Of a stretch of DNA of 64,000 nt, positions 1 to 13,172 are shown in pieces. The position numbers and the translations under genes were made by a program. The notes beneath the pieces are model-generated. The model worked only from the letters and a program-made list of their open reading frames with translations. It searched no databases and was not told the origin of the DNA. Position 1 is the stretch's first letter, and each line of letters begins with the position of its first letter. Origin of the DNA: an uncultured Selenomonadales bacterium (lineage in GTDB: Bacteria > Bacillota > Negativicutes > Selenomonadales > Selenomonadaceae); assembly GCA_946183785.1 (NCBI GenBank), contig CAMHCS010000002.1, positions 1-64,000 on the forward strand, given 5' to 3'.

Positions 1-109
1 TTTTTCAAATCCCGCGCAACACTTTTCGATCTCGGGAGTATAAAGAACAGATAATCAAAAACAAAAGCCTGCGGGCGAAGAAAAGGAAGGGTGGTCATGA
101 TGAAACTGG
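1..109 (+). repeat. Duplicated intergenic unit, copy A (upstream of first double-glycine gene)
   Basis: This stretch is nearly the same as 448-556, with a constant offset of 447 bases and only scattered substitutions and small indels. It holds the untranslated region, the AAGGAAGG-type ribosome binding site and the first codons of the leader peptide gene. In copy B it lies directly after the stop codon of a paralogue. Copy A therefore probably also follows a paralogue whose end lies just left of the window (inference). Confidence 0.85.
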
Positions 110-441
110 AAAACGCGAACAAGCTTACGGACGATGATTTGGAGCAGGTGGTTGGCGGAAATAATATGGAACAGGATTCAAAATTCCTGAATGTGTTGTT
201 AAGAGGCCGTCCCGGACATTGCGGCAGATGGGGCAGTTTTACGGTCGCAGACCATTGGTGGGAACTGCATGATGCGTGGAGATCCGTGGGAGTTGATACA
301 CAACAAGAATATGATGGATATTTTGGCGGCTATGAGGTGGCTTATTATATCGACGGCAAAAGGGTAAGGCAATTCGATGCTTGGATTCACGCGGAGCAGG
401 TGGTAGGCAAGCACTTGAAGCGCGCGGATTGGGATTGGTAA
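97..441 (+). CDS. Double-glycine leader secreted protein, paralogue 1
   Basis: Predicted 114-residue protein. The N-terminal leader MKLENANKLTDDDLEQVVGG has the pattern of leaders cut after Gly-Gly by C39 peptidase ABC exporters (established for class II bacteriocins and related RiPPs). The cargo of about 93 residues is long for a bacteriocin. It contains DSKFLNVLL just after the GG, a DAWRSVGV block, YYIDGKRV, and the C-terminal signature HAEQVVGKHLKR.DWDW shared with paralogues 4 and 5. I chose the ATG at 97 because GGAAGG lies six bases upstream; a GTG at 91 and an ATG at 100 are alternatives. No exporter, modifying enzyme or immunity gene is visible beside it. Function unknown; a secreted antagonistic or signalling protein is an inference. 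Confidence 0.75.
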   Translation: MMKLENANKLTDDDLEQVVGGNNMEQDSKFLNVLLRGRPGHCGRWGSFTVADHWWELHDAWRSVGVDTQQEYDGYFGGYEVAYYIDGKRVRQFDAWIHAEQVVGKHLKRADWDW

Positions 442-447
442 TACGGA

Positions 448-556
448 ATTTTCAAATCCTACGCAACACTTTTCGATTTCGGGAGTATAAAGAACAGACA
501 AGCAAAAGCAAAAGCCTGCGGGCGAGAAAAAAGGAAGGTGACCATGATGAAACTCG
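448..556 (+). repeat. Duplicated intergenic unit, copy B
   Basis: Copy of 1-109, starting seven bases after the stop codon of the first paralogue and running into the start of the second. A shorter related segment (GCCTGCGCACGAGGAAAAGG and following bases, about 1693-1742) precedes the fifth paralogue. The pattern indicates that gene and upstream region were duplicated together. Confidence 0.85.
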
Positions 557-891
557 ATAAGGAAAACAAACTCACCAATGAAGCACTCAAACAGGTAGCC
601 GGAGGAAACGCCGGCGAGTGTGCGCTTGAATCGGAATTTTTTAATGACCTTGGATATAATATTCAAGAAATGGGTTTCTTGTACATGGAGTTTAATTGGG
701 AAGAAGGGTCGGCTAAAGTCAAGGAAGCGTGGGCGCATTTCGGCGTAGATTGTGATATCGCCAAGTCGAGAAAAAATGCGTATTACATCGACGGCAAGAG
801 AGTTTCAAGGCGTGAGGCATTTAAGCATGCGGCATATAAAGCCGGAAAGCCATGGGTCTATGATGATGATTATTCTAAATGTGCCCTCTGA
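544..891 (+). CDS. Double-glycine leader secreted protein, paralogue 2 (divergent C-terminus)
   Basis: Predicted 115-residue protein with leader MKLDKENKLTNEALKQVAGG. The middle keeps the KEAWAHFGVDC and AYYIDGKRVSRREAF blocks of the family. The C-terminal signature VVGKHLKR.DWDW is replaced by KAGKPWVYDDDYSKCAL, so the copy has diverged or changed target. It has Cys residues near the GG site, in the AWAHFGVDC block and near the end. The start at 544 follows GGAAGG; GTG 538 and ATG 547 are alternatives. It is in the same orientation as its neighbours with about 100 bases between genes, so co-transcription with the array is likely but not shown. Confidence 0.72.
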   Translation: MMKLDKENKLTNEALKQVAGGNAGECALESEFFNDLGYNIQEMGFLYMEFNWEEGSAKVKEAWAHFGVDCDIAKSRKNAYYIDGKRVSRREAFKHAAYKAGKPWVYDDDYSKCAL

Positions 892-939
892 TATGAAATG
901 GCAGGTTTGTCCCTGAATCATAAGAAAGGAGCGATTACA

Positions 940-1296
940 ATGACGAATCTTGAAAACGCGAAGCTGAACAATGAGGAACTGGAGCAGGTTGCAGGGGGAA
1001 GCGCCTACGACTTGGCGGATGACAGCCGTTTTTTGAACTCGCTGAACGGTTCGACGGACCGTTATGGCGCATGGAAGATGCATAACTCCAAGGATCGGCT
1101 TTTAATCATTGAAAATGCATGGGCAAAACTTGGAATCGGCCTTATTTGCCCTGGCGACCCTACGGATTATGATACGAAAATCCAGTATGTGCTCATTGAC
1201 GGCGGGAATATCACGCCCATCACGCATGAACAGGCGCGCCAGCACGCCATGGAGGTTACCGGGCATTATATGTCCTATAAGGAATGGCACGGGTAA
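940..1296 (+). CDS. Double-glycine leader secreted protein, paralogue 3
   Basis: Predicted 118-residue protein. Leader MTNLENAKLNNEELEQVAGG, then DDSRFLNSL as in the other paralogues. The core block is ENAWAKLGI and the second block is YVLIDGGNITP, a weaker version of Y.IDGK.V.R. The C-terminus is HAMEVTGHYMSYKEWHG, recognisably related to HAE.VVGKHL.R.DWDW but strongly changed. The ATG at 940 has AAAGGAG upstream; an in-frame ATG at 898 would add residues before the leader and is unlikely. This is the most divergent member together with paralogue 2, and it has a single Cys. Its product is unknown; see paralogue 1 for the family interpretation. Confidence 0.72.
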   Translation: MTNLENAKLNNEELEQVAGGSAYDLADDSRFLNSLNGSTDRYGAWKMHNSKDRLLIIENAWAKLGIGLICPGDPTDYDTKIQYVLIDGGNITPITHEQARQHAMEVTGHYMSYKEWHG

Positions 1297-1321
1297 GACG
1301 GAAAAAGAAAGGGCGGTCGTG

Positions 1322-1678
1322 ATGAAACTCGATAAAGAACACGAACTCAGCAAGGAGGAGCTTGAGCAGGTATCGGGAGGATGCGACTATGAAATATCCG
1401 ATGACAGCAAATTCTTGAATGTTTTGCTCAGGGGAACCGATTATCATCGTTGCGATCGCTACGGCAAATTTAAAATTTTTTGGGGGAGCAGCAAACGTTA
1501 TGGTCCATGTGAAGATATCGAGAATTCTTGGAGGGTGCTTGGCATTGAGATGGTCCCTTACGCCTGTGATCATAATGAATACTGGATGAACGGCAAACGC
1601 ATTACGAGGGACGAGGCTTGGGCTCATGCGGAAGCGGTAGTGGGCAAGCACTTGGAACGCAAAGATTGGGACTGGTAA
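1322..1678 (+). CDS. Double-glycine leader secreted protein, paralogue 4
   Basis: Predicted 118-residue protein. Leader MKLDKEHELSKEELEQVSGG; a Cys directly follows the GG. The cargo has DDSKFLNVLLRG, a longer variable stretch with YGKFKIFWGSSKRYGP, then ENSWRVLGIEM, YWMNGKRITRDEAWAHAE and the full ending VVGKHLERKDWDW. The gene starts 25 bases after the stop of paralogue 3, so the two are probably one transcript. The start at ATG 1322 matches the MKLD start of the other copies; GTG 1319 is possible. Much longer in-frame upstream sequence is open but runs antiparallel to no known domain and overlaps paralogue 3 in another frame. Confidence 0.73.
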   Translation: MKLDKEHELSKEELEQVSGGCDYEISDDSKFLNVLLRGTDYHRCDRYGKFKIFWGSSKRYGPCEDIENSWRVLGIEMVPYACDHNEYWMNGKRITRDEAWAHAEAVVGKHLERKDWDW

Positions 1679-1730
1679 AGATAAGGCAAAGGGAAAAACA
1701 GCCTGCGCACGAGGAAAAGGAAGGGTGGCC

Positions 1731-2063
1731 ATGATGAAACTGAAAAACGAGAACAAGCTTGCGGACGTTGATTTGGAGCAGGTTGTGGGCGGAGACGATA
1801 TCGCCGACGATTCAAGATTCCTGAATGTGCTGCTTCAAGGGCGCGAGGGGCAATGCGAGAGATACGGCTCCTGGAGAAGCGGTCGCCACTTTGACGAAGT
1901 GGCCAAAGCCTGGAGATCCGTGGGGGTTGATTGTGGTTGGGATGATGATGATGAGTGTTGCTGTTATCGCATCGACGGCAAAGTGGTCAGCCGATATGAA
2001 GCGTGGCTGCACGCGGAGCAGGTGGTGGGCAAGCACTTGAAGCGCTCGGATTGGAATTGGTAA
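1731..2063 (+). CDS. Double-glycine leader secreted protein, paralogue 5
   Basis: Predicted 110-residue protein, the shortest member. Leader MKLKNENKLADVDLEQVVGG, followed by DDSRFLNVLLQG, AKAWRSVGVDCG, an acidic and Cys-rich insert (DDDDECCCY), then RIDGKVVSRYEAWLHAE and the ending VVGKHLKRSDWNW. The Cys-rich insert is unique to this copy. The ATG at 1731 has GGAAGGG upstream. It is the last gene of the array; the next gene is an unrelated outer membrane protein 120 bases downstream. No terminator hairpin is obvious between them. Function unknown; secretion after Gly-Gly cleavage is inferred from the leader alone. Confidence 0.75.
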   Translation: MMKLKNENKLADVDLEQVVGGDDIADDSRFLNVLLQGREGQCERYGSWRSGRHFDEVAKAWRSVGVDCGWDDDDECCCYRIDGKVVSRYEAWLHAEQVVGKHLKRSDWNW

Positions 2064-2183
2064 GGGCTGAAATTTTGTTTTCGTGGCAGGAATTTGTTGT
2101 TTCATGTCGAATTTTGTACCCACAGCATCGTGATCTCTCTGCAAGAGCGCTGTCCACTCTGATGCAAGCAAAGGGGATTTTTG

Positions 2184-3587
2184 ATGAGAAAGGCACTTTT
2201 ATCCACCTGCGCGGCGGCTCTCTTGGCTGTTTCCGCTTCCACGGCTTTTGCTGCGGCAAATCCCTTCGAGGACGTCCCGGAGGGCCATTGGGCATACGAC
2301 GCTGTGTCACAGCTTGCCGCTGACGACATAATCGAAGGGTACGGCGACGGCACCTATCGCGGCGACCCAAAAATCACGCGCTTCGAGATGGCGAAGATGA
2401 TTGCCCGCGCCATGGCGAATGGCGGCGGAGACAGGGCGACGCTCGACAAGCTGGCGGCGGAGTTCGCCGACGAATTGAACAGCCTCGGCATCCGCGTGGC
2501 GAACCTCGAAAAGAAAGTCGACAACATGACATGGAAGGGCCAGCTCCGCTACCGCTACCACAATGAATGGGAAATCGACGAGGGCACAAGCACACGTTAC
2601 AGCCATTCCTTTGTGACATTGCGGCTGGAGCCCTCCATGCGCGTCAATGAACACTGGAGCGGCCATGCCCGCATCGATTACAATTCGAATATGAACTCGG
2701 CGGAGAACACGCCGGCAGCGCACATGACGTACACCAAACGCCACCTCGAATCCGACATTGAGTACAACGGCATGCGCGTTGAGCGAATCTGGGTCGAGGG
2801 CGACTATGGCAACCTGAATCTCAAATTCGGCAAGCTGCCTTACTTCTCGAATATTGACGAAGGCATGATGTACGACGACAACGTATCCGGCGGGCAAATC
2901 ACCTTCGGCAACAAGGTCAGGGCGACGCTCACGGCGGGCCGCGCCAAGCGCTTCGACGGCGAGCTGGGCATCGATCCGGATGACGGCGACAACGACACCG
3001 GCAACTATCAGGCCATTGAGATTTACAATGACCGCGCCGACAAATGGACGTGGGGCGTGGCATGGCATCGTTGGGCCAACGAGCATGAACTGGTGGATGA
3101 CACCAATGCCGACCATCTCAACATCTATGAAGCGGCGTTAGGCTACAAGTTCAACAAGAATCTGCGGCTGCACGGCGCGTTCGCGTGGACGAACGATCCC
3201 GATTTCGACCATCCAGACAACGAGGAAGAGGACGGCCAGATGGAAATCTATCCGCAGCCGATTTTCTCCCATTCCAAGCGGTCTTGGAGCATCGAGTTGG
3301 ATTACAAAAAGGCAGACCCCAAGGACAAAGGTTCTTGGGGCGCATTCCTCGCCTACCGTCACCTCGGCCATTACTCCTCCATCGCGCCGACCTATAACAC
3401 GATTTACAATGGCCGCCGCGGCGTGGAACTTGGCGTCAGCTATGTTTTCCTGAAAAACCTGATGGGAACGGTCAAGTTCTTCCGGGGCGAAAAGATGCCG
3501 GACGACGACAAGGGTGACAATCCGAGGCCGCGCGATCAAATGGAACGTGACTCCGTCATCTTTGCGGAACTGAATTTCTTCTTCTGA
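2184..3587 (+). CDS. OmpM-type SLH-domain outer membrane porin
   Basis: Predicted 467-residue outer membrane protein. A signal peptide of about 23 residues ends at AFA-AANPF. Residues 26-80 form one SLH domain (FEDVPEGHWAYDAV, GYGDGTYRGD, ITRFEMAKMIARAM). A short coiled coil follows (LDKLAAEFADELNSLGIRV, ANLEKKVDN). The rest is a beta-barrel rich in alternating aromatic strands and ends in FAELNFFF, the terminal Phe expected of barrel proteins. In Negativicutes, OmpM proteins are abundant porins that hold the outer membrane to peptidoglycan through the SLH domain (established knowledge). ATG 2184 is chosen over TTG 2181 because AAGGGGA precedes it. A second OmpM gene lies at 23651. Confidence 0.9.
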   Translation: MRKALLSTCAAALLAVSASTAFAAANPFEDVPEGHWAYDAVSQLAADDIIEGYGDGTYRGDPKITRFEMAKMIARAMANGGGDRATLDKLAAEFADELNSLGIRVANLEKKVDNMTWKGQLRYRYHNEWEIDEGTSTRYSHSFVTLRLEPSMRVNEHWSGHARIDYNSNMNSAENTPAAHMTYTKRHLESDIEYNGMRVERIWVEGDYGNLNLKFGKLPYFSNIDEGMMYDDNVSGGQITFGNKVRATLTAGRAKRFDGELGIDPDDGDNDTGNYQAIEIYNDRADKWTWGVAWHRWANEHELVDDTNADHLNIYEAALGYKFNKNLRLHGAFAWTNDPDFDHPDNEEEDGQMEIYPQPIFSHSKRSWSIELDYKKADPKDKGSWGAFLAYRHLGHYSSIAPTYNTIYNGRRGVELGVSYVFLKNLMGTVKFFRGEKMPDDDKGDNPRPRDQMERDSVIFAELNFFF

Positions 3588-8976: not shown

Positions 8977-9972
8977 ATGAAGCGCTATCTCCTGCAGCGG
9001 TTTTTGTCTCTTGTTCCCGTGCTTTTGGGAATCACGTTTCTTTCGTTCGCCCTGATGCGGCTGGCGGGCAGCGACGCGATCACGGAGATGTATTCGGGCG
9101 TGGGCGCCGCCGTATCGCAGGAGACTTTGGACGCGGCGCGGGCGAAGCTCGGTCTCGACCAGCCGTTTCTCGTTCAGTATTTTTCCTGGCTCGGCAATAT
9201 GATCACGGGCGACATGGGCAAAAGCTTCGTGTCCGGGAAGGACGTGCTCGACACGTTCCTGTCGAAGCTGCCCGCCACGCTTCTACTTGCGGCGGCGAGC
9301 ATCCTTTTGACCGTCGCGGTTTCCATACCGCTTGGCGTAATCTCCGCCGTCGTCCATCAAAAGGCGCAGACGGCCCGGAACGCTTCCGTGCGTTCCGCTT
9401 GTTCCCTGCTGGATGCTGTCGTGCGCCTCGCCAGCTTTATCGGCAATTCCATGCCGAATTTTTTTGTGGCGCTGCTCTTGATGCACTTTTTCGCCGTCCG
9501 CCTCGGCTGGCTGCCCGTCATCGCCAGCGACGTAACGCTTACGGGTGCGGTCATGCCCACGCTGACGCTGACGATCGCCATGTCGGCGAAGTATCTCCGG
9601 CAAGTGCGGGCGGCGGTATTGGACGAGCTGTCGAAGGACTATGTGACGGGGGCGAAGGCGCGTGGCGTGGCGGACGGCGTGATCCTCACGAAAAGCGTGC
9701 TGCGCTCGTCGCTGCTGACCATCGTGACGCTCCTTGCGCTCTCCGTCGGCTCGCTCTTAGGCGGCACGGCCATCGTCGAGACGATTTTCATGTGGGACGG
9801 CGTGGGGAAATTGGCGGTGGACGCGATCATGATGCGCGACTATCCGCTGATCCAGGCCTACGTCGCCTGGATGGCCATCATCTACGTCGGCGTAAATCTC
9901 GCCGCCGATCTCTTGTATCTTGTGCTGGACCCGCGGGTCAGTCTGGAGGTAAAGCGTCATGCCGGCGTCTGA
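8977..9972 (+). CDS. Nickel/peptide-type ABC transporter permease (NikB/DppB-like)
   Basis: Predicted 331-residue inner membrane permease. It opens with MKRYLLQRFLSLVPVLLGIT, the typical first membrane helix of this family, and has about six hydrophobic segments. The inner-membrane EAA loop is visible as YVTGAKARGVADGVILTKSVLRS. ATG 8977 is preferred to ATG 8947 because GGAAAGGG lies nine bases upstream and the family starts there. It overlaps the second permease by 14 bases. It forms the channel with that permease in the importer encoded by 8977-14738. Confidence 0.88.
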   Translation: MKRYLLQRFLSLVPVLLGITFLSFALMRLAGSDAITEMYSGVGAAVSQETLDAARAKLGLDQPFLVQYFSWLGNMITGDMGKSFVSGKDVLDTFLSKLPATLLLAAASILLTVAVSIPLGVISAVVHQKAQTARNASVRSACSLLDAVVRLASFIGNSMPNFFVALLLMHFFAVRLGWLPVIASDVTLTGAVMPTLTLTIAMSAKYLRQVRAAVLDELSKDYVTGAKARGVADGVILTKSVLRSSLLTIVTLLALSVGSLLGGTAIVETIFMWDGVGKLAVDAIMMRDYPLIQAYVAWMAIIYVGVNLAADLLYLVLDPRVSLEVKRHAGV

Positions 9973-10816
9973 ACCGACGATTCGCGAGGCGGTTATCCGC
10001 GGCTCCAGCGGCAAAACGCGGCTGTACGTTTTCGGCGCGCTGGCGGCGCTCCTGATTGTCGGCGCGATCTTTGCAGAAAGCCTTTGTCCCTGCGACCCGT
10101 ATCTTCAAAATCTCGACGCGGCGCTGCAGCAGCCGTCGGCGGCGCACATCTTCGGCACGGACCGCTACGGGCGCGATATGCTCTCGCGGGTCGTCGCGGG
10201 AAGCCGCGTCAGCATTTTTTCCACGTTTCTCCTGGTGGCGATTATCACGACCCTCGGCACGGCAATCGGCGTTTTCTGCGGCTGGGCGCGGGGACAGGCG
10301 GACCATCTTCTGATGCGCGTTTCCGATCTTTGCCTCGCGTTCCCCGGCCTTGTCTTCGCGCTGGCGGTGGCGGGCGTCCTGGGCGGCGGCCTGCACAACG
10401 CGATTCTCGCCCTCGCCGCCGTCTCATGGCCGAAGTACGCGCGAATCGCCCGCAGCCAGACGCTGGCCGTGCGGGAAACTACCTATCTGAAAGCGGCGCG
10501 GCTCGCCGGGTGCTCAACGTCCCGGCTCATCCTGAAACACATCCTGCCGAATATCGCGGGGCCGATCTTAGTGACGGCGATGCTGGATGTGGGCACCATG
10601 ATGATGGAGCTGGCGGGGCTTTCCTTCCTCGGTCTCGGCGCGAAGCCGCCGACGCCAGAATGGGGCAGCATGATGAGCGAGACGCGGGGACTCCTGCAAA
10701 CGGTCCCGTGGGCGGTCTTCGCTCCCGGCCTCGCAATCTTCGCCGCCGTCATGGTATTCAACCTGCTGGGCGACGCGGTACGGGATTATATGGACCCAAA
10801 GATGAGGGGCAGGTGA
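9959..10816 (+). CDS. Nickel/peptide-type ABC transporter permease (NikC/DppC-like)
   Basis: Predicted 285-residue permease. After a short cytoplasmic start, the first membrane helix is LYVFGALAALLIVGAIFAES. Family hallmarks are FGTDRYGRDMLSRV and the EAA loop ETTYLKAARLAGCSTSRLILKHILPNI. GLSFLGLGAKPPTPEWGSM near the C-terminus is typical of DppC/NikC proteins. Partner of the NikB-like permease with which it overlaps; the ATP-binding gene begins six bases after its stop. Confidence 0.9.
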   Translation: MPASEPTIREAVIRGSSGKTRLYVFGALAALLIVGAIFAESLCPCDPYLQNLDAALQQPSAAHIFGTDRYGRDMLSRVVAGSRVSIFSTFLLVAIITTLGTAIGVFCGWARGQADHLLMRVSDLCLAFPGLVFALAVAGVLGGGLHNAILALAAVSWPKYARIARSQTLAVRETTYLKAARLAGCSTSRLILKHILPNIAGPILVTAMLDVGTMMMELAGLSFLGLGAKPPTPEWGSMMSETRGLLQTVPWAVFAPGLAIFAAVMVFNLLGDAVRDYMDPKMRGR

Positions 10817-10821
10817 GCAGC

Positions 10822-11607
10822 ATGGATGAACTTTTGCGCTACGACTACGTTACAATCGCATACAGCGCCGTCCCCGTCGTCCGTGACGTCAGCTTTTCCC
10901 TGCACGAAGGGGAAATCCTCGGCGTCGTCGGCGAGTCCGGCAGCGGCAAGAGCACGCTCCTGAAAGCGGCGATGGACCTGCTCCCGCCGTGCGGCGTCGT
11001 GACCCGCGGCGATATATGGTACAGGGGGCAAAATCTCCCCGACCTTCCCGAGAAAGAACTCCGCCGGCTTTCCGGGCCGGAGCTCGCGATGATCTTCCAG
11101 AACGCGGGCGCATCCTTCTGCCCCATCCGCACCGTGGGCGCCCAGCTTTACGAAGCGGTTTCCGCCCACGAAAATATTACGGAAGCCGGCTTTCGCGAAA
11201 AGGCGGCGGAACTTTTGCAAAAACTCCGCTTCGAGGACGTCGCGCGCATCCTCGAAAGCTATCCTTTCGAACTGTCCGGCGGCATGATGCAGCGCGTGGG
11301 TATTGCCGCCGCCATGCTGCTGAATCCGTCCGTGCTGCTGGCCGACGAGCCCACCAGCGCCCTCGACGTTTCCGTACAGAAGCAGGCCGTCGAGGAACTG
11401 CTTTTGATCCGGGAGCTGTACCATACGTCCATTATCCTCGTGACCCACAATATCGGCGTCGTCCGCGCGATGGCGGACCGCGTGGCCGTGATGAAGGACG
11501 GGCGAATCGTGGAGTGCGGCGACACGCGGGACGTGCTGGAGCATCCTGCGCAGGAATACACAAAAAAACTTACGGCGGCTGTGCCGAAATTGCGGAGGAG
11601 CGCATGA
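10822..11607 (+). CDS. ABC transporter ATP-binding protein (NikD/DppD-like)
   Basis: Predicted 261-residue ATPase. Walker A is GESGSGKST, the signature is LSGGMMQR and Walker B is VLLADEPTSALD; the switch His is in VTHNIG. The ATG at 10822 is chosen because it starts the conserved domain; the frame is open far upstream but that region is the permease in another frame. Its stop overlaps the next ATG (ATGA), so the two ATPases are coupled and likely form a heterodimer powering the two permeases. Confidence 0.9.
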   Translation: MDELLRYDYVTIAYSAVPVVRDVSFSLHEGEILGVVGESGSGKSTLLKAAMDLLPPCGVVTRGDIWYRGQNLPDLPEKELRRLSGPELAMIFQNAGASFCPIRTVGAQLYEAVSAHENITEAGFREKAAELLQKLRFEDVARILESYPFELSGGMMQRVGIAAAMLLNPSVLLADEPTSALDVSVQKQAVEELLLIRELYHTSIILVTHNIGVVRAMADRVAVMKDGRIVECGDTRDVLEHPAQEYTKKLTAAVPKLRRSA

Positions 11608-12356
11608 CGACGCCGATGTTGCAGTTGCAAAACCTCAAAAAAATATTTTCGCGGAACGGGCAAGCCGGTTTCATTGCCGTGGACGGCGTCAGCTTCGATA
11701 TGGCGCAGGGGGAATGCGTCGGCCTGATCGGCGAGTCCGGCAGCGGCAAGAGTACCGTCGCGAACATGATCGCCCGACTGCTGAACCCCGACGAAGGGCG
11801 GATTATCCTTGATAGCGCGGACGTTACGCGGGCCGGCGTCCGGGCCGTCTGCCGCAAAGTGCAGATGGTGTTCCAGTCGCCGCAGGAATCTTTTGACCCG
11901 CGCCGCACGCTGGGGGACGGCGTCGGCGAAAGCCTTTTGAACGCGGGGAAATCTGCCGCCGAAGCGCGTGAGGAAGTTGCGCGGCTTTTGGAAGCCGTCG
12001 GCCTCCCGCCGGACTTCGCGGGTCGCTATCCCCATGAGGTTAGCGGCGGCCAATGCCAGCGGGCGGCGATTGCCCGCGCCCTCGCGATCCGCCCGAAGCT
12101 GCTGCTTTGCGACGAGGCCACCAGCGCCCTTGACGTCACCGTGCAGGCGGAGATTGTCGCGCTGCTTTCGCGCTTGATACGGGGGCGGGGCATGGCGTGC
12201 CTGTTCATTTGTCACGACGTCGCGCTGGCGCAAGATTTCTGCGACCGCCTCCTCGTCATGCATCGCGGAAAGATCGTGGAAGAAGGACCGCCGGACGAGA
12301 TCGTCCAATCGCCGAAGCAGGAATATACGAAGCTGCTAATCGACAGCGTTTTATAA
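11604..12356 (+). CDS. ABC transporter ATP-binding protein (NikE/DppF-like)
   Basis: Predicted 250-residue ATPase. Walker A GESGSGKST, signature VSGGQCQR, Walker B LLLCDEATSALD, switch His in ICHDVA. It lacks the long C-terminal oligopeptide-binding extension of OppF, consistent with the shorter NikE/DppF type. GGAG precedes the ATG, which overlaps the stop of the preceding ATPase. Next in the operon, after about 90 bases, is a methyltransferase and then the binding protein. Confidence 0.9.
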   Translation: MTTPMLQLQNLKKIFSRNGQAGFIAVDGVSFDMAQGECVGLIGESGSGKSTVANMIARLLNPDEGRIILDSADVTRAGVRAVCRKVQMVFQSPQESFDPRRTLGDGVGESLLNAGKSAAEAREEVARLLEAVGLPPDFAGRYPHEVSGGQCQRAAIARALAIRPKLLLCDEATSALDVTVQAEIVALLSRLIRGRGMACLFICHDVALAQDFCDRLLVMHRGKIVEEGPPDEIVQSPKQEYTKLLIDSVL

Positions 12357-12446
12357 AAGAGTGAAGAGTTAAGAGTGGAGAGTGTAGATATTATGCGGAC
12401 TTATCTCCACTTTTAACACTCCCCGCTCAAATAAAGGAGCAATCTC
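12357..12446 (+). repeat. Imperfect inverted repeat between ATPase and methyltransferase genes
   Basis: GAGTTAAGAGTGGAGA near 12365 can pair imperfectly with TCTCCACTTTTAACACTC ending near 12421. There is no T run after the second arm, so it is more likely a processing or attenuation structure than a terminator. It separates the permease/ATPase genes from the methyltransferase and binding-protein genes. Confidence 0.5.
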
Positions 12447-13172
12447 ATGGAAAACTTGAAGGACCACATCAAAAGCTACTGGACAAAACGAGCGCCGTCC
12501 TTTGTCGCGCAGCGGCTCCGGGAATTTGAGAGTGAAAAGCGCGCGCTGTGGCTGCGGGAAATCTCCCGTTATCTGCCGCAGGGAAAACGGCTCCGCATTT
12601 TAGACGTCGGCACGGGGACGGGCTTTCTCGCCTGCCTGCTGGCCGCCGAGGGGCATACGGTCACGGGCATCGACCTGACGGCTGACATGGTTTCCCATGC
12701 GGAAACTTTCGCGAGAACGGTGGACGTCCCCGCCCGATTCCTCGTGATGGACGCGGAATGCCCGGATTTCCCGCCGGAAAGTTTCGATGCCATCGTCACG
12801 CGGAATTTGACATGGACGCTGCCGGACTTGCAGAAAGCCTATCGTTCATGGCATGAGCTGTTGGCGAAAGGAGGGACATTGATCAATTTCGACGCGGACT
12901 ATTGCCATGAATTTTCTGACGCGGAGGACGTGGCGCTGCTGCCGAACCACGCACACAAAACGATTCCCGCCGATCTCATCGAGGAAAGCGACGAGATCAC
13001 GATGGAAATGTGCGCGTACCAAAAGCGGCGGCCCGAATGGGATTTGCGCCTTTTGCTCGACGCGGGCTTTTCCCGCGTCACGGTGGACGCGGGCGTATGG
13101 AAGCGCGTCTCCGCCGAGCCGGACGAGTTTTACAACCCGACGCCGATTTTCACGATCGCGGCGGAGAAATGA
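12447..13172 (+). CDS. Class I SAM-dependent methyltransferase in the importer operon
   Basis: Predicted 241-residue cytoplasmic enzyme. Motif I is ILDVGTGTGFLACLLAAEG, followed by the acidic residue in VTGIDLT, and FDAIVTRNLTWTLPD as the motif II/III region. It belongs to the UbiE/YcgJ-like group; the substrate is unknown. AAAGGAG precedes the ATG. It sits between the ATPase genes and the substrate-binding protein gene, 18 bases before the latter, so it is probably part of the same uptake system. Modifying an imported metal chelator is a possibility (inference only). Confidence 0.82.
   Translation: MENLKDHIKSYWTKRAPSFVAQRLREFESEKRALWLREISRYLPQGKRLRILDVGTGTGFLACLLAAEGHTVTGIDLTADMVSHAETFARTVDVPARFLVMDAECPDFPPESFDAIVTRNLTWTLPDLQKAYRSWHELLAKGGTLINFDADYCHEFSDAEDVALLPNHAHKTIPADLIEESDEITMEMCAYQKRRPEWDLRLLLDAGFSRVTVDAGVWKRVSAEPDEFYNPTPIFTIAAEK

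Follow-up and report, generated by a model that had tools for sequence, protein, structure and literature searches.

A lineage-specific family of small double-glycine-leader proteins in the Selenomonadaceae with predicted NHLM-type export and exchange of cargo cassettes

The window, i.e., the whole stretch of 64,000 nucleotides that was analysed, opens with five adjacent paralogous genes on the forward strand (91-2063), each of which, according to the list of open reading frames (ORFs), encodes a double-glycine (GG) leader followed by a homologous cargo. These genes are assigned to a lineage-specific and apparently undescribed family, and they are interpreted, with a probability of about 0.6, as part of a cassette-evolving set of small secreted proteins that act on other cells. 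Export of the cargos through a C39-peptidase route is well supported by the sequence evidence, and the action on other cells is the weakest step of the proposed mechanism. The ORFs span 91-441, 538-891, 940-1296, 1322-1678, and 1725-2063 (+ strand). Counted from the ATG codons that give leaders of 20 residues, the precursors of genes 1 to 5 have 113, 114, 118, 118, and 109 amino acids and the cargos 93, 94, 98, 98, and 89 residues, as follows:

Gene 1, 100..441, + strand: 20-residue GG leader and 93-residue cargo; mature part 160-438; ORF called from GTG at 91.
Gene 2, 547..891, + strand: 20-residue GG leader and 94-residue cargo of type NAGECALESEF; mature part 607-888; ORF called from GTG at 538.
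Gene 3, 940..1296, + strand: 20-residue GG leader and 98-residue cargo of type SAYDLADDSRFLNSLNGS; mature part 1000-1293.
Gene 4, 1322..1678, + strand: 20-residue GG leader and 98-residue cargo with C-terminus VVGKHLERKDWDW; mature part 1382-1675.
Gene 5, 1734..2063, + strand: 20-residue GG leader and 89-residue cargo with C-terminus VVGKHLKRSDWNW; mature part 1794-2060; ORF called from GTG at 1725.

All five leaders end in V(A/V/S)GG and share the invariant positions L, L, Q-V, and G-G, and the cargo residues that are invariant across the window genes are S30, F32, N34, L36, W63, G67, G89, A97, H100, A101, and G106. The block VVGKHL.R.DW.W, reported in three copies by the initial annotation, terminates genes 1, 4, and 5, and the tails of genes 2 and 3 have diverged. 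Scoring against the GG-leader model TIGR01847 (cut-off 15.7 bits) gave 15.9 bits for gene 4 and 13.0 bits for gene 1, the other genes being unlisted. Chance resemblance among the cargos was rejected using a cargo-only profile, built without any sequence from the window or from contig C53 of the same genome, which recovered all five cargos at E 4e-24 to 3e-29; a full-length family profile, which included the five window proteins themselves, matched them at E 7.5e-40 to 3.9e-56. The median dN/dS of the cargos was 0.38, with a few tandem paralogue pairs near or above 1, which indicates that the genes are translated and under selection. Cargos of 90-98 residues had been regarded as unusual for exported GG proteins; this does not apply to diderms, where the class II microcin precursors of Enterobacterales measure 75-120 amino acids (PMC9746304).

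The window starts at base 1 of contig C2, and the genome is divided into 94 contigs. Searching it with the family profile yielded nine copies, of which five are those of the window and the other four lie where contig C53 (16,796 bases) ends. C53 also has a counterpart 98% identical to the gene 3 cargo. The last bases of C53 form the stop codon of a family copy and the window opens in a spacer resembling that ahead of gene 2, so the two contig ends probably adjoin at an assembly gap caused by repeats, although an exact-match comparison of the C53 end with the window start found no overlap of at least 10 bases. The array as first described was therefore correct for the five genes of the window and too small in extent, since the four further copies are probably contiguous with it. 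Beside these four copies lies a complete NHLM-type export operon, with its C39-peptidase ABC gene approximately 2-4 kb from them, and its order, leading away from them, is given below together with the copies:

Family copy, C53 14999-15361, - strand: profile match.
Family copy, C53 15399-15752, - strand: profile match.
Family copy, C53 16074-16412, + strand: profile match.
Family copy, C53 16461-16793, + strand: profile match.
Second adaptor, C53 13586-14803: beside the family copies.
NHLM adaptor, C53 12588-13586: TIGR03794, 212 bits against a cut-off of 156.2.
C39-peptidase ABC protein, C53 10321-12591: TIGR03796, 948 bits against a cut-off of 853.3.
Second ABC protein, C53 7547-10324: TIGR03797, 722.2 bits against a cut-off of 709.4.
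TolC-like channel, C53 6044-7540: only 150 bits against a TIGR01844 cut-off of 225.
ECF sigma factor, C53 5315-5959: within the NHLM operon.
Small AAAG protein, C53 4886-5194, - strand: next after the ECF sigma gene (locus L022).

The C39 domain of this exporter contains Cys (TECGAA), His (NHFVVL), and Asp (LNDPS) in the expected context, the triad being judged from the motif context. Four C39-peptidase ABC transporters were found in the genome, one of them in the full NHLM operon near the C53 copies, in agreement with the expectation that a matching exporter for the GG leaders would exist somewhere in the genome. The four NHLM loci are located on C53, C6, C17, and C31, the last being interrupted by a contig end. 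The C6 locus (L018, G000:C6:38000-52000, G000 being the window genome) is a separate RiPP-type locus, in which a radical SAM-SPASM protein and three Nif11-like GG-leader precursors (9952-13151, - strand) accompany their own NHLM exporter. At the C17 locus (L019, G000:C17:18000-33000), a lone GG-leader protein is encoded beside the exporter (669-1049, - strand), its cargo of 82 residues being of another type; it possibly represents a second family of exported folded domains.

NHLM/NHLP export (TIGR03794, TIGR03796, TIGR03797) was described for NHLP/Nif11-leader precursors (Haft et al. 2010, PMC2887384), and the present family resembles that system in having all three export proteins above cut-off beside it, GG-leader substrates in large paralogous sets, and co-occurrence across genomes. 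On this precedent, and given the radical SAM-SPASM enzyme and Nif11-like precursors at C6, the cargos could be RiPP precursors that are enzymatically modified ahead of export. This is improbable, however. Neither the C53 operon nor the window array was seen to contain a maturation enzyme, and the radical SAM locus on C6 is equipped with precursors of its own. The five window proteins lack matches to TIGR03793 or TIGR03798 up to E 1, no NHLP or Nif11 leader domain is present in the family, the leader measures only about 20-30 amino acids, and the cargos are predicted, with confident models, to be homologous conserved folded domains of 80-100 amino acids rather than short hypervariable cores. 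Among 29 exporters placed in a tree, that of C53 clustered with exporters of other family-carrying genomes and apart from those associated with Nif11-type precursors. In another genome (L062:10162-11562, G098:C47), genes next to an NHLM exporter combine the leader type of the present family with cargos of quite another kind, including a proline/isoleucine-rich repeat, so that this leader also carries seemingly unrelated cargos.

The cargo family was present in 70 of the 189 genomes of the host's bacterial family, in 9 of its 30 genera and with up to 23 copies per genome, and a C39 exporter was present in 103 of the same genomes. With a looser profile cut-off, which raises the stricter count of 70 carriers to 71, the exporter was found in 60 of the 71 carriers versus 43 of the 118 non-carriers (Fisher p 4e-11, a value that ignores the kinship of the genomes and overstates their independence). 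Most of the 11 carriers without an exporter match are incomplete or fragmented assemblies. Most arrays of other genomes are not beside an exporter, and the pairing of family and exporter there consequently rests on co-occurrence. A search at the level of the order returned the same genomes as that at the family level, and among 398 genomes sampled across the phylum there were only three matches, all within the same bacterial family. A search of the available literature for this cargo family, or for systems combining ECF sigma factors with GG leaders, found nothing directly relevant. Relatives were likewise absent from a collection of viral sequences searched with the family profile, and this search lends no support to a phage origin. 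The named relatives, Selenomonas ruminantium SIG239 and Anaerovibrio RGIG5102, are both metagenome-assembled; they bear out the proposed diderm Firmicute host, a description that fits both genera. Directly 3' of the array (window 2181-3587, + strand) lies a gene for an S-layer-homology outer-membrane porin, OmpM-like by eye, which is consistent with a diderm Negativicute.

Leader/cargo discordance was assessed by DNA alignment over the junction, protein identity being too noisy with such short leaders. The gene at L006:5022-5447 is 96% identical to L005:11582-12007 in the 5'UTR and leader and only 60% identical in the cargo, whereas against L005:9989-10348 it shows 68% identity upstream and 99% in the cargo; the divergent halves in this cassette-swap comparison are at 60-69%. 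The point at which identity switches falls inside the QV-GG codons. For window gene 2, the cargo has counterparts of 97% identity in L006 and 95% in L054, where the leader regions are only 60-70% similar, whereas the glnA genes of those genomes share 67-72% DNA identity with that of the window genome, which indicates recent transfer of the cargo between genera. From these alignments, cargo cassettes are judged to move horizontally and to be swapped between genes and genera. Cargo types common to several genera are under purifying selection, as measured by dN/dS. The combination of a constant trafficking part, exchangeable C-terminal cassettes, and horizontal spread is also known from polymorphic toxin systems (PMC3482391), but the cassettes of the present family all fall into a single fold family, their constant partner is a GG leader predicted to be cleaved, and neither a recognised toxin domain nor an adjacent immunity gene was seen. 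If, on the other hand, the GG motif were coincidental, these would be cytoplasmic proteins with an intracellular role, as might be argued from arrays that are often far from exporters and from secretion being deduced from sequence; the conservation of the leader beside diverse cargos, its reassortment exactly at GG, the co-occurrence with the exporter, and the adjacency at C53 make this very improbable. Cargo homologues without a leader occur beside leadered copies at L005:12014-12373 and L047:1966-2319 and are either truncated genes or possible partner proteins; a role as immunity proteins was considered and set aside, as the cases are few and at least one resembles a truncated copy.

Many family copies are preceded by the sequence GTAAC-N16-CGTATAA, which conforms to the general layout of ECF sigma promoters, and which reads GCAAC-N16-AGTATAA in the window:

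ECF-like promoter of gene 1, 16..43, + strand: GCAAC-N16-AGTATAA.
ECF-like promoter of gene 2, 463..490, + strand: GCAAC-N16-AGTATAA.

A 34-base promoter pattern, searched with up to three mismatches, occurred four times in the genome (2.93 Mb), in each case at a family gene, and the reversed control gave none. A short degenerate pattern returned the same four sites in this genome against three reversed-control matches, a number near background, and three sites against four control matches in the relative G166; specificity in both genomes consequently rests on position, and in G000 also on the full 34-base match. In the relative G053, 27 sites were found against none in the control, 23 of them before GG-leader genes, and the remainder comprised one each before a family gene lacking GG, a leader-like NGAS gene, and a small AAAG protein, and one unexplained site. 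Altogether, 64 of 115 family genes have a promoter site; genes lacking one may be read from the upstream gene. An ECF-type sigma gene lies near every one of the four NHLM loci, and the four best sigma region-4 matches of the genome are those at these loci (C53:5345, C17:20690, C6:51836, and C31:23871).

The small protein encoded next to the ECF sigma gene on C53 belongs to a group with a leader-like L..DELD.VAAAG sequence and an invariant AAAG, found in 106 of the 189 genomes; other examples are L017:3515-3790 (- strand), L115, L119, L120, L124, L126, L128, and L098. It was present in 92 of 103 exporter-bearing genomes versus 14 of 86 others (p 8e-26), and, among the 150 copies listed, 77 have one of the listed C39 exporters at a distance of at most 15 kb. 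The AAAG gene often adjoins an ECF sigma gene, several loci carry the same promoter as the cargo arrays, and the protein has no match in Pfam or NCBIfam. Two roles are conceivable, that of an anti-sigma factor bearing a leader mimic and that of a precursor of a peptide signal. A speculative extension, which we consider doubtful and of which no earlier description was found, is an export-coupled circuit in which the ECF sigma factor drives the arrays and the leader-mimic partner, carrying L..DELD.VAAAG in place of ...V.GG, detects the state of the C39 exporter, free or loaded, and tunes the sigma factor to it; the exchangeable domains would then be made only when export works.

Structures of the mature cargos were predicted using AlphaFold2 for gene 5 (pLDDT 83.9, pTM 0.78) and gene 3 (pLDDT 82.5, pTM 0.78). 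Despite 31% identity, the two models agree on two helices, a three-strand sheet, and two helices, with the lowest certainty around residues 21-30, and the cargo is thus predicted to be a compact soluble alpha/beta domain. The Y.IDGK..R.EAW.HA block forms a beta hairpin and the third helix of the models, and DW.W falls in the final short helix. The initial annotation had viewed the conserved tail as an uptake, folding, or receptor element; its placement within the hairpin and helix, together with the restriction of VVGKHL..DW.W to a subset of the genes, gives no support to an uptake or receptor role, and the models favour a part of the fold with a folding role. The accompanying proposal that the variable middle is the specificity region is plausible. 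Sequence searches of Pfam, NCBIfam, PHROGs, and PDB with the cargo gave nothing significant, and fold searches gave no convincing match (Foldseek against PDB, best E 0.5; VIA, best Z 3.6; viral models, best E 0.25). A PprA-like fold was discarded, the corresponding matches at Z 3.1-3.6 being too weak; results of this kind are no proof that the fold is new.

With regard to function, the cargos could be ordinary class II (microcin-like) bacteriocins, each killing related bacteria, with immunity genes elsewhere or a general form of protection. The GG leader, the precursor size (109-118 amino acids), and the C39-ABC, adaptor, and TolC components correspond to the gene set of class II microcins (PMC9746304), the repertoires vary by genome and move horizontally, and some tandem pairs have dN/dS near or above 1. 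However, neither the window array nor several others contained an immunity-gene candidate (ORF of at least 45 amino acids with an ATG start), which argues against simple killing. The cargos are hydrophilic and mildly acidic (median pI 5.8), with no toxin-like or pore-forming character, they reach 23 copies per genome, and the genus-spanning types are under purifying selection. The family further differs from class II microcins in its large paralogous arrays, two ABC proteins of the NHLM type, and ECF-type promoter. Taken together, a microcin-like identity has a substantial, though minority, chance of being correct.

A comparable but somewhat smaller chance is given to communal or matrix factors, i.e., biofilm or cell-surface proteins. 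The precedent is the EbfG1-4/PteB system of Synechococcus elongatus, with four adjacent GG-leader genes whose products require a C39 peptidase for secretion and are needed, redundantly, for biofilm formation (PMC4997328). The small adjacent GG-leader proteins and C39-type export are common to both systems, and such a role would suit arrays in which no immunity genes were seen and which share a predicted ECF-type control. The mature EbfG proteins are shorter (6-7 kDa) and without homologues, the likeness drawn here being one of gene arrangement, leader, and export route. Fast exchange of cassettes combined with horizontal spread is a pattern more typically seen in genes for conflict or recognition. 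The earlier reading as secreted antagonistic or signalling proteins thus stands with respect to secretion, export being well supported, and is weakened with respect to antagonism by the lack of immunity-like genes in the window array and the character of the cargos. Antagonism, for which the variable and mobile repertoires speak, is judged a real possibility at somewhat under even odds, and a non-killing social role is held tentatively; the preferred description is secreted interaction proteins, with antagonism placed slightly ahead.

In the mechanism proposed for these secreted interaction proteins, the ECF sigma factor of the export operon would read this promoter and switch the arrays on; the C39 domain of the exporter would cut after GG, and the ABC-adaptor-TolC machine would then release the 89-98 residue cargo outside the cell. 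The cargo would fold as an alpha-alpha-beta-beta-beta-alpha-alpha domain that is compact and soluble and in which a conserved core is joined by parts that vary more, and the changing repertoire of each genome would act on other cells, most likely among rumen selenomonads, in competition, recognition, or communal behaviour. An antagonistic role would leave the missing adjacent immunity genes to be explained, and a social one would extend the EbfG precedent. The ECF-like promoter provides a handle for listing whole repertoires from sequence, and cargo swapping that falls precisely at the GG codons, together with the near-identity of cargos across genera, offers a natural system for studying the reassortment of a secreted repertoire. 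For rumen bacteria, the family would add a large set of exported folded domains to the NHLM route, which is known mainly for short modified peptides.
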